A stretch of DNA of 52,979 nucleotides from a virus, in the IMG/VR virus record IMGVR_UViG_3300028490_000010, positions 1 through 52,979 of that record, one strand, 5' to 3'. The position numbers and the translations under genes were made by a program. This document shows, one piece after another, positions 49,123-52,927 of this stretch; the stretch's first letter is position 1; each line of letters opens with the position of its first letter. The notes under the pieces were generated by a model that worked only from the letters and a program-made list of their open reading frames with translations, did not search any database and had not been told where the DNA came from.

Positions 49123-49380
49123 ATGAGCAAGATACTCACAGAAACAGTTGCCAAAAATCTTGGCATTTCTAAGACAGAAGCTGCTAAAATTGTCAAAGCT
49201 GTAACGACTTCTATTGAAGAAGTAACAGCAGCCAATGGTAGCTTAACTCTTATCAATTTTGGTTCATTCACAGTGAAACCATTCAAGCGTACAAGTACAC
49301 TACACAAGAAGACGTATCATATTGATAAAAATATCATTCGCTTCAAGCCGGGTCTTGGTTTCTCTCGTAAAGTAAACTAA
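49123..49380 (+). CDS. HU/IHF-family DNA-binding protein
   Basis: An 85-residue protein with the full HU/IHF pattern: two helices (KILTETVAKNLGISKTEAAK), INFGSFTVKPF, the DNA-wrapping arm residues (RTSTLHKKTYHI) and FKPGLGF near the end. HU-like proteins bend and compact DNA and support initiation at origins. The gene is the only plus-strand gene in the window. AAAGGACATCCT precedes ATG 49123. It converges with the next gene across a hairpin. Confidence 0.95.
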   Translation: MSKILTETVAKNLGISKTEAAKIVKAVTTSIEEVTAANGSLTLINFGSFTVKPFKRTSTLHKKTYHIDKNIIRFKPGLGFSRKVN

Positions 49381-49599: not shown

Positions 49600-50026
49600 T
49601 CAAAGCCTTAGTAAATTTTAAATTTAAGTGCGATAAGAAAGCCAATGATTTTGACTTGTCCCTCATTACTATTTTCTTATAAGCAACCTTTCCGGCCACA
49701 ACCTCTATTGAATATACACTGTCTGCTGTATCTTTCGTTACTGCAGGCATCCATATAATCTCTGTTACTTTGTCCCATTCTACGCTTGGGAACCTTTTTT
49801 CTACTACTTCATTGAAGATCTCCTTCTCTGTTTTTTCAATTTTAGGGATTACAACTTTAGCAACTTCAACCTTTGGTTTAGTTTTCCGACTAAGTATAAA
49901 CTCATTTACATACTTCGCTAGAACATCCTCCTCAAGGGTATCAGCATCTACATCGTATCTCACTTTTGCGAAATCTTTAAATGCCTGTATATCTGGTATA
50001 GGCACATACCTATTTATCAAACTCAT
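49586..50026 (-). CDS. Hypothetical protein (146 aa)
   Basis: MSLINRYVPIPDIQAFKDFA from ATG 50026, overlapping the helicase stop (ATGA). Lysine-rich and mixed alpha/beta (KPKVEVAKVVIPKIEKTEKE). Its position directly after the helicase suggests a replication link, such as loader or inhibitor, but no motif supports this. Confidence 0.78.
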   Translation of the reverse strand: MSLINRYVPIPDIQAFKDFAKVRYDVDADTLEEDVLAKYVNEFILSRKTKPKVEVAKVVIPKIEKTEKEIFNEVVEKRFPSVEWDKVTEIIWMPAVTKDTADSVYSIEVVAGKVAYKKIVMRDKSKSLAFLSHLNLKFTKALNETD

Positions 50027-51411
50027 ATTGGAGGCATGTCTACATTAATATTCCCCGTATTCATAAGCGTCGTCTCTACGATTTCACCTGTTTCTTCGTG
50101 GTATACATCTATATCATCCTCGGCATAGTCATATTCTACAACATGAACAGCTCCAAAGTTTCCATCTGCATTATCTGTAAATTTAACCTTTGGACCAACG
50201 AACATTGTCTTAGCTCCACCAACCTCACCATCTCTGTTTTTCAACACGAGTATTTCTACTTCATTTACTGGCTCTTCTCTTTTTGCTTCCTCTCTTGATG
50301 TATAATAAGACTCACGGTAGATACCAAGTATTACATCAGCATCTTCTTCAATAGATCCCGACTCACGCATGTCTGATAATTGAGGTCTTTTGTTTGGTCT
50401 GCTCTCTATTCCTCTGTTTAGCTGAGACAATAACCACACCTTACATCCTGAGTCTTTAGCCAAGCGTTTAAGTGTCTTTGTAACATCACCAATCCTCAAG
50501 TGGTTATTTGCATATCCACCTGGGTCTTTGATGTACGTTAAGTGGTCAATGAATATATTCTTGATAGACGGGTCTCTACGAATTAGGGCCATTCCCATGT
50601 TGTATATTTGTATGTGGTCCACTACTTTGTCAAGTAGGATAAAGTTATCTGCATCTTCAAGTAGTTTCTTCATCCTGTTATAATTGCCGAGATCTCTAAG
50701 CTTGTTATGTCGTATGTCGTTCAAGGCTTCACCTGAACCACAAGACAACGTCCTTAGCATAATGTTCTCTGCAGGCATCTCAAGAGAGAAGAAGGCACTA
50801 CCCTCATTACTATCAAGTAAGTGGAGTATTATCGATACCACAAGCCCAGTTTTACCCATACTTGGTCTAGCTGCAACCACAATAAGATTTCCTGGCTCAA
50901 GGTTCAAGTACCTGTCAACTTCAGACAGTCCTGTTCCATGATCCTTTATAGGGTTTGCTATACGGTCTTCCATTACAGCAATGATATCCTTATTTGTTCT
51001 CTGGACAGATGAGTCAAAAGAACTTGTGTGTTTAAGGTCATCGATAGAGTAATCTCTACCTTCTAGTATTGCTGCCTTTACTTCTTCTAATTTTGCAAGC
51101 ATAGACCTATTCTCATACGCAGCTTTAATGTTATCTGCCTGCATGATTACAGTGTCTATACTAACGGGTGTAGTCAGTGCAATGGAAACAATTTCTTTTT
51201 CTTTGTCTGGGAATTTTTGTGTTACTAAGTAATCCGTCACAGGGCTATTTGTAAGATAGTTCACCATGGCGAAGTCAAATATGTCACGACAAACCTGGTC
51301 AAAGAAATGCTCAGGTTGTAATCGGTCTATAAGGTGTTCCATTATCGAGGAGTTAAACATCAAAGTAGAGCATATCGACTTTTCAGCCGGTATGGTATTC
51401 ATACTTATCAT
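50023..51411 (-). CDS. dnaB: DnaB-type replicative DNA helicase
   Basis: A 462-residue RecA-like replicative helicase. The N-terminal domain (1-100) is typical of DnaB, with a linker helix. Walker A is ARPSMGKT (181-188), SLEMP follows at 209-213, Walker B is IFIDHLTYI (D289), LSQLNR is at 328-333, and the DMRESGSIEEDADVI segment (347-361) carries an arginine-finger region. Unwinds DNA at the fork, with the primase at 42-43.6 kb. The ATG 51411 follows AAGGAGTAGATA (TAATG). Confidence 0.96.
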   Translation of the reverse strand: MISMNTIPAEKSICSTLMFNSSIMEHLIDRLQPEHFFDQVCRDIFDFAMVNYLTNSPVTDYLVTQKFPDKEKEIVSIALTTPVSIDTVIMQADNIKAAYENRSMLAKLEEVKAAILEGRDYSIDDLKHTSSFDSSVQRTNKDIIAVMEDRIANPIKDHGTGLSEVDRYLNLEPGNLIVVAARPSMGKTGLVVSIILHLLDSNEGSAFFSLEMPAENIMLRTLSCGSGEALNDIRHNKLRDLGNYNRMKKLLEDADNFILLDKVVDHIQIYNMGMALIRRDPSIKNIFIDHLTYIKDPGGYANNHLRIGDVTKTLKRLAKDSGCKVWLLSQLNRGIESRPNKRPQLSDMRESGSIEEDADVILGIYRESYYTSREEAKREEPVNEVEILVLKNRDGEVGGAKTMFVGPKVKFTDNADGNFGAVHVVEYDYAEDDIDVYHEETGEIVETTLMNTGNINVDMPPI

Positions 51412-51911
51412 TATCTACTCCTTGTGAACATGGCGTTCATTTTCATCCTAAGCATTCCTGCTTCTACGTTGGCTACCGTTACTTTAAGTAGCTCTGCAAA
51501 TCCTCTCAACATGTTATTGTTAAGTGGAGCAAAAGCCTCATTGCCACCAATAGTTATCAGTAGACCAGGTCCTTTTGCAGTAATTCCTGCCCTAAGAATG
51601 TTTGTTCCGCCTCTACCGGTAAGAGCTTCATAGTTCTCTCCTTGTGTTCCATCTAACTGGCAAAGCATATGTGATGCTAGAGAGAGTGTAGTCTCAGGTG
51701 TAAGATATACTTTAAAGTCTTCCCCACCTTTTTGTGCGTGGTTATGCACTTTTATGTAGAAGCCTGTAGAATAGTTCACGAAAGGTGAAGTTCCATTTGG
51801 GTTAGGTGTAGTCTTTACTTTGATAGTAGAGTCTATCCTAATTGTATGCTCTTTATCTGTACAAAAAATTGTATGATTTAGAACAGTGTGCGTTATTGTT
51901 TTGGGTTCCAT
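51411..51911 (-). CDS. Hypothetical protein between initiator and helicase (166 aa)
   Basis: MEPKTITHTVLNHTIFCTDK from ATG 51911 (AGGAGGAAAC). The protein is beta-rich in the first 75 residues, then helical and glycine-rich (GRGGTNILRAGITAKGPG). Its place between initiator and helicase genes suggests a role in replication, such as loader or single-strand-binding protein, but there is no diagnostic motif. It overlaps the initiator by 19 bases. Confidence 0.8.
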   Translation of the reverse strand: MEPKTITHTVLNHTIFCTDKEHTIRIDSTIKVKTTPNPNGTSPFVNYSTGFYIKVHNHAQKGGEDFKVYLTPETTLSLASHMLCQLDGTQGENYEALTGRGGTNILRAGITAKGPGLLITIGGNEAFAPLNNNMLRGFAELLKVTVANVEAGMLRMKMNAMFTRSR

Positions 51912-52927
51912 AGTTTGTTTCCTCCTTTATAGTTTTGAACGATAGCATCAAAGTTGCTTTCAATGAATGGCCACATCTTGTCAGCCTTTTCTTTTTCGAG
52001 ATACTTGTTTGCTCTATAGTCGTATAGTGCTTTGTATTCTCCGAAGATACACAAGTGTGTTTCTCTCGTTTCTCCTTGCGGAATAAACTTGAAGAACACT
52101 TTACTATCTCCGAATGCCTCTAGTACACGGTCACGTATAGGCTTTACAGGCTCATGCTTTGTCTGCTGAGCTGTTAGTGTATCAAACTGATCTCTAAGCT
52201 TTTTACCTGACTTTATGTTGCCTATCCAGAATGATCCGCCGCCATTGTGTATCCAGTTGATTTTTTCAATCAGTTGTTGCTTCGTACGATTGTCTAAGCG
52301 GATAGCTCTGTCAATGTCTTTTGCCCATGCACTGATCGTTGGATTTGTAGGTGCTTTATAGTTATCTATAGAGCTGAGTAGTTTAGTTGCTAGATACTCT
52401 GATATCTCTATAGCCTCTTTCATACTTTCACTAATCTCTACAGAAGCAACGTCGTCAACTTTTGTTGCGACAGGAGCAGTAGCGACATTAAGGTTAGTGT
52501 TTATATTAGTATTACTAAGGGGTGTCAAATCTGTCACCCCCGTCCCGGTGTCACCAGTGTCACCCTCCCCGGTGTCACCAGTGTCACCCCCTATCTCTCG
52601 GATGTTCGTACCTTTTATCTTCTCTGCATAGGCTTTCCTATCACCTCTCTTGTCAAACATATAGTAGTCCATACCTGTCATAGCACCAGTTTCACCTACT
52701 CTTTGTTGCACTAAAATATATCCTGCTTCCACAAGCTCAAGACGTCTCCTTTGAAGCGTTCTCTTTATTAGTCCCGTCTCTTTCATGATATTCCTATCAT
52801 AAAATTTCCAAGTATCAGATTTAGACTCTATATAGATCCACAATATCTTTGCACCATCTGATAATTCTTTGTCTAAGATTAGTGCGTTTGGAACTTGAGT
52901 AAAGTTACCATGCAATCTTGTTTTCAT
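51893..52927 (-). CDS. Putative replication initiator, winged-helix protein
   Basis: A 344-residue protein with an N-terminal winged-helix/helix-turn-helix domain (FTQVPNALILDKELSDGAKI, YDRNIMKETGLIKRTLQRRR, residues 9-75), followed by a low-complexity GDTG-rich linker (113-136) and a longer C-terminal domain. The layout resembles phage replication-initiator proteins with DNA-binding N-terminus and helicase-interacting C-terminus. The linker is encoded by an iteron array, as in the O-type initiators of lambdoid phages. ATG 52927 follows AAGGAGAGATAA. It is upstream of the helicase gene. Confidence 0.83.
   Translation of the reverse strand: MKTRLHGNFTQVPNALILDKELSDGAKILWIYIESKSDTWKFYDRNIMKETGLIKRTLQRRRLELVEAGYILVQQRVGETGAMTGMDYYMFDKRGDRKAYAEKIKGTNIREIGGDTGDTGEGDTGDTGTGVTDLTPLSNTNINTNLNVATAPVATKVDDVASVEISESMKEAIEISEYLATKLLSSIDNYKAPTNPTISAWAKDIDRAIRLDNRTKQQLIEKINWIHNGGGSFWIGNIKSGKKLRDQFDTLTAQQTKHEPVKPIRDRVLEAFGDSKVFFKFIPQGETRETHLCIFGEYKALYDYRANKYLEKEKADKMWPFIESNFDAIVQNYKGGNKLWNPKQ
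52490..52520. other. AT-rich segment beside the iterons (possible unwinding element)
   Basis: The bases between the iteron array and the N-terminal side of the linker coding region are strongly A/T (TTTATATTAGTATTACTAA). Origin-unwinding segments often lie beside initiator binding sites. It is within the coding region of the initiator. The role is inference. Confidence 0.4.
52521..52589. repeat. GTGTCA iteron array inside the initiator gene (candidate origin)
   Basis: Three 19-bp units at 52521-52539, 52547-52565 and 52571-52589 each hold two GTGTCA sites nine bases apart (GGTGTCACCAGTGTCACCC; the first unit has one CTGTCA variant). The second and third are part of 22-bp identical repeats 24 bases apart. 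The first starts 26 bases before the second, which is not a whole number of codons, so the conservation is at DNA level. An AT-rich stretch (about 52490-52520) lies alongside. This is the arrangement of a phage origin. Confidence 0.7.

Follow-up and report, generated by a model that had tools for sequence, protein, structure and literature searches.

The window, by which we mean the whole stretch of 52,979 nucleotides of viral DNA analysed here, very probably carries a lambda-like replication origin at 52445-52591, inside the gene of its own initiator. Comparison with a related phage genome, L060, makes the array region appear a clean case of a coding stretch selected more strongly for DNA than for peptide. 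The gene and the parts of the proposed origin are:

51893-52927, minus strand: initiator gene, 344 aa, with an HTH_36 winged helix, a disordered linker and a lambda-O-like C-terminal domain (from the ORF, Pfam, PHROG and an AF2 model)
52715-52867, minus strand: HTH_36 DNA-binding domain, aa 21-71, with the recognition helix at about aa 55-68 (KRTLQRRR, R60)
52151-52342, minus strand: lambda-O-like C-terminal domain, aa 196-259, the proposed helicase recruitment part (BLASTP, phrog_391/277)
52571-52588, unstranded: iteron unit GGTGTCACCAGTGTCACC, two TGTCA cores 9 bp apart
52547-52564, unstranded: iteron unit GGTGTCACCAGTGTCACC, 24 bp from the unit at 52571-52588
52521-52538, unstranded: diverged iteron unit 1, GGTGTCAAATCTGTCACC, 26 bp pitch, other reading frame
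52489-52518, unstranded: AT-rich stretch, proposed DNA-unwinding element, 80% AT, nearly identical in L060
52451-52471, unstranded: imperfect inverted repeat GTCGCAAC-AAAA-GTTGACGAC, unchanged in L060
52445-52591, unstranded: block constrained at the DNA level, codons 113-161, proposed origin (codon identity and linker pLDDT)

The array occupies about 52521-52589 and lies 340 bp into the initiator gene. Its three 18-bp units have pitches of 26 and 24 bp, and the 9-bp core spacing is present in all three. An earlier note on this DNA had described six GTGTCA sites; the second site of unit 1 reads CTGTCA, so the number of exact sites is five, not six. The remainder of its description was confirmed: a 22-bp stretch is identical in units 2 and 3 (period 24), unit 1, shifted by 26 bp, encodes GVTDLTP in another frame as opposed to GDTGDT, GGTGTCACC is an odd-centred palindrome, and an AT-rich stretch follows the array, with 80% AT over 30 bp in the gene direction compared with the gene mean of 60%. 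The hairpin at 52451-52471 sits 20-40 bp past the AT stretch and could be a priming or loading element.

Paired GTGTCA sites are absent elsewhere in the 53-kb window (0.1 expected), and three such pairs were reached in 0 of 100 shuffles. The encoded peptide, GDTGDTGEGDTGDTG, is itself repetitive and accounts for part of the DNA repeat, so the window alone supports repetition at the DNA level only moderately. We permuted synonymous codons within the initiator gene, keeping the protein, and recorded an 8-mer repeat score and the TGACAC count. The score of the array was matched in 13 of 2000 shuffles and its TGACAC count in 52 of 5000 (p about 0.007-0.01), and the longest repeat in the array is 22 bp, compared with at most 20 in 1000 codon shuffles. 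Judged on the window alone, a DNA-level repeat is suggestive, not decisive; with the genome of L060 added, the case for it becomes strong.

Single-protein searches of viral contigs, with the initiator or DnaB as the query, returned no close relatives. L060 was found by scanning viral contigs for three GGTGTCACC within a short distance and was later recovered with a two-sequence alignment. It is a viral contig of 187,664 bases with an ORF 71% identical in amino acids to the window initiator. The two ends of the contig share 31 bp within the initiator gene, and the contig therefore appears circular. GGTGACACC has exactly three copies in its 187.7 kb, all in the array and spaced 24 and 26, the same pitch as in the window. 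On the gene strand, two of the L060 units read GGTGCCACTGGTGACACC and one reads GGTACCACTGGTGACACC. Both phages have the third unit out of frame, and the L060 peptides are VPLVTP versus GATGDT, though 17 of 18 bases agree.

The conservation comparison was made between two genomes, the window phage and L060, the single close relative found. Within codons 113-161, the same codon is used at 38 of 40 identical residues, compared with 70 of 154 in the rest of the initiator gene (Fisher p 2e-9). In the adjacent dnaB, the codon is shared at 126 of 287 identical residues, with at most 24 in any 40-site stretch. About ten amino-acid changes fall in the block, versus two silent ones. Synonymous conservation is confined to the array, the AT stretch and a 44-bp flank bearing the imperfect hairpin. 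The comparison with a related phage that the earlier note had proposed thus found synonymous conservation of the array, and its view that the repeat is held at the DNA rather than the protein level gains support from the codon identity with L060 and from the out-of-frame unit having been kept. In L060, the GC skew switches sign twice, once around 177-180 kb, which is 8-10 kb away from the array, and once between 130 and 140 kb; since it follows gene orientation, it speaks neither for nor against an origin at the array.

The identification of the 344-aa protein as an initiator was based on several matches, which bear out its earlier designation. Pfam HTH_36 scores 26.6 bits at aa 21-71 (cut-off 25), and the PHROG matches are to replisome organizer, O-like and DnaD-like loader families (phrog_391 at 40-258, phrog_4880 at 80-254 and phrog_2514 at 179-259; E 1e-13 to 1e-15). 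Residues 196-259 align with the C-terminal part of lambda O by BLASTP (30% over 64 aa, E 8e-7). The linker, aa 114-162, has pLDDT below 50 in the AF2 model and is predicted to be disordered, and the constrained block 52445-52591 encodes exactly this linker. Beyond the winged helix the model is of low quality (pLDDT 60), so the fold matches cover only aa 1-101; the best solved matches of the N-domain are the RepA initiator N-domains 4pt7/4pql, with Z 8.6 over 81 residues, and other winged helices reach 7-8. A sequence search for solved structures returned none for the protein. Neither Phage_rep_O (PF04492), which lambda O itself matches at 5.7e-36, nor RepA_N (PF06970, up to E 1) nor the Collagen profile matched it.

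The neighbouring genes named below lie close to the initiator:

50023-51411, minus strand: DnaB-like replicative helicase (Pfam DnaB_C 3e-58; 68% identical in L060)
51411-51911, minus strand: 166-aa ORF between the initiator and dnaB, without family matches
49123-49380, plus strand: HU-like gene, surrounded by minus-strand genes and 3 kb away from the array

The helicase gene is in the same cluster as the initiator, as the earlier note had it; it is one ORF downstream in the window and directly downstream in L060, where the 166-aa ORF between the two genes is absent. The HU-like gene exists as well, but its supposed part in a replication module gained no support: it is 3 kb off, on the opposite strand, and no finding connects it with the origin. 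No RNA families were found.

The proposed mechanism begins with the HTH_36 domain of the 344-aa protein, which would bind the three 18-bp units, probably as dimers. The initiator-array complex would melt the AT-rich stretch next to it; recruitment of the phage DnaB helicase to the opened strand would fall to the lambda-O-like C-terminal domain. As the array lies in the sequence coding for a flexible interdomain linker, the DNA could be preserved for binding while the peptide is free to change. We infer that binding, melting, helicase loading and the start of replication all occur at the array.

The layout itself is already known from lambda O and RepA_N plasmids. Lambda iterons are imperfect inverted repeats of 18-19 bp with a pitch of 20-24 bp; they are bound by O dimers, which open the AT-rich sequence beside them (PMC5043065, PMC7466680). 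The annotated lambda iterons, each 18 bp long, follow one another at 20, 24 and 23 bp, occupy three phases and sit at 0.39 of gene O; the sequence after them is 77% AT compared with 52%. The window array likewise has 18-bp units in mid-gene with a pitch of 24/26, followed by an AT-rich stretch, and the C-terminal domain of its initiator is homologous to that of lambda O. In contrast, the iteron sequences are unrelated, the N-domain is Phage_rep_O in lambda O and HTH_36 in the window protein, and the window phage encodes its own DnaB, with no lambda P seen next to it. The parallel to the origin in lambdoid gene O, proposed earlier with the proviso that the sequence differs, is thus upheld by the iteron geometry, the AT stretch and the C-terminal match. 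As its N-domain is not of the lambda O family, the window origin would work like a lambdoid origin without being one.

RepA_N plasmids such as pSK41 also have a winged-helix N-domain and an origin encoded by the central linker, as proposed for the window gene. In pSK41, the Rep boxes are central within rep, and the encoded linker is dispensable in the protein (PMC5703833). By the Z scores given above, a fold as in 4pt7/5kbj ranks first for the window N-domain, though many other winged helices come close. The C-terminal domain of the pSK41 protein is unlike that of the window protein, which lacks a RepA_N match. In pPR9, the N-domain and origin block of Rep are replaced by one with a pfam13730 HTH, and the mini-replicon replicates (PMC5703833). 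This hybrid Rep has an HTH_36-type N-domain as in the window protein, but it belongs to a plasmid and has a different iteron and a pSK41-type C-terminal domain. The rep of p18813-P03 (L414) has a pPR9-like make-up, with a weak HTH_36 plus Bac_RepA_C; its linker carries repeated short motifs followed by AATACTAATA-type AT-rich repeats, and its array does not exceed codon shuffles by the 8-mer score. Mycobacteriophage RepA (Miko, Rachaly, Jeeves) is likewise an HTH initiator but is used for prophage maintenance, unlike that of the window; its gene with little flank suffices for replication, and the origin is thought to be in or next to repA (PMC7157519). The literature searched, which covered few subscription papers, held no description of a shared 18-bp unit or of intragenic iterons in HTH_36 phage initiators.

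The viral-contig scan for three GGTGTCACC within a short distance gave 83 stretches, 58 of which have the array in an HTH-like ORF. Among 73 array-ORF proteins scanned, 57 match HTH_36 and 59 match phrog_270 (replication initiation). A control 9-mer of the same composition, GGTCTGACC, gave 8 stretches compared with 83; two of these are HTH genes (L093 and L095), one of which has repeated QT motifs in its linker. This makes the control less than fully neutral, and the GGTCTGACC array in L093 is perhaps another iteron of the same class. Five other array ORFs match the Collagen profile. In the tail-fibre-like phage ORFs L107, L110, L112, L121, L126, L131 and L153, GDTGDT peptides give the same 18-mer DNA, and such ORFs are therefore false positives in pattern scans. 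A scan of cellular genome contigs returned mostly other repeats, with 5 of 118 in HTH genes. In L185 and L196, contigs of Bacteroidetes MAGs, GGTGTCACC repeats occur every 84 bp outside HTH genes.

A non-redundant set of 39 GGTGTCACC-array initiators, with domain identities below 60%, was compiled. The sites occupy at least two strand or frame phases in 37 of them. Over the 39, the AT excess in the 30 bp after the array is +0.16 above the gene mean (SE 0.012), and that before it is about 0. A distance of 9 bp separates the cores in 67 pairs, with 22-24 bp as the next spacings, which is the geometry of the window. AACC occurs 1.28 times in the 60 bp after the array compared with 0.33 at randomly chosen positions of these genes; the repeats are mostly 11-13 nt apart, with no excess on the opposite strand. 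Direct downstream neighbours of these initiators include DnaB helicases and IstB/DnaC-like loaders. After the array, GAACCGTC occurs four times in the Arthrobacter phages RedFox and Cupello, and AACCAGTC is found in ST64B. Vibrio phage D77 has three GTGACAAAATGTCAC-like sites and then AACC repeats, and Pontimonas phiPsal1 repO has four TCCACTGTGGA-like sites. The GTGTCA array is absent in the Staphylococcus, Flavobacterium, Croceibacter and LL-H phage relatives, and no convincing array was seen in the Gordonia and Lactobacillus relatives inspected.

DNA-level conservation of the array could also have other sources. If the array were an operator through which the protein controls its own gene or the dnaB operon, with the origin elsewhere, intragenic binding sites would yield the same conservation, and the origin activity of the array is so far a proposal. 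Operators, however, are usually found at promoters; this array sits 340 bp inside the gene, and promoters there are at chance level (3 found versus 2.9 expected). The AT peak is one-sided across 39 lineages, which an operator does not need, and the array layout equals that of the lambda origin, so we consider an operator unlikely. Recent recombination of the segment, rather than constraint, might explain the similarity to L060, as two close genomes were compared and phages exchange segments. A recent transfer would also lack amino-acid changes, of which the block has about ten beside two silent ones, and would leave the class-wide pattern unexplained; this explanation is very unlikely.

A collagen-like GDT linker, with the DNA repeat as a by-product of the peptide, would fit the tail-fibre peptides that give the same 18-mer, the Collagen matches of five array ORFs and the only moderate significance of the window-only codon shuffles. 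Such a protein-level repeat appears already contradicted by unit 1, which is in the other frame in both phages, by the changes D115A, D123A and TDL to PLV amid almost no silent ones, and by the use of at least two phases in 37 of 39 arrays; we give it hardly any credence. A partition (centromere-like) site is just as improbable. Short-repeat arrays beside replication genes can be parS, and some solved structures near the window winged helix are centromere binders; against this, no partition gene was seen among the ORFs neighbouring the initiator, and the array is inside the initiator gene with an AT-rich stretch after it.

An array inside the initiator gene is not peculiar to this phage but recurs in many unrelated ones. 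We hold with moderate confidence that the phage and prophage replicons with HTH_36 initiators make up one broad class. Each would have an origin of its own in the linker directly behind the DNA-binding domain, made up of an iteron array whose sequence tracks the recognition helix and then a strand-biased AT-rich element, with AACC every 11-13 nt in the GGTGTCACC class. To our knowledge, most phage origins are unmapped. If the broad-class reading is true, origins and initiator specificity would be readable from sequence alone in many phages, and if the HTH_36 linker is the origin, origins would become predictable for many uncultured phages and prophages. The lambda-type layout would also extend to a relative of nearly 190 kb, and pairs of recognition helix and iteron would be raw material for a DNA-recognition code of the HTH_36 winged-helix family.

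For a sample based on the domain, we drew HTH_36 genes with 200 aa or more from prokaryote genomes without regard to the array (n=53), and an array was called when at least four copies of an 8-mer within 220 bp exceeded codon shuffles. Arrays were found in 21 of 53 HTH_36 genes compared with 6 of 132 other ORFs from these loci (p 1e-8). By the 8-mer measure, more than half of the sampled genes are without an array; with roughly half lacking one, the class statement covers a large part, not all. The arrays are close to the end of the HTH domain, with one exception, and nearly all the iterons differ from GGTGTCACC, for example GGACACGG, GGTGCGCC and GGTGAACC. In 18 non-GGTGTCACC arrays, AT is also higher after the array, less one-sidedly than in the GGTGTCACC class. 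Helices were aligned to a profile built from the array genes for counting residues. With kinship ignored, R stands at helix position 9 in 37 of 39 GGTGTCACC genes versus 9 of 18 genes with other iterons (p 2e-4), and QR at positions 8-9 in 21 of 39 versus 2 of 18.
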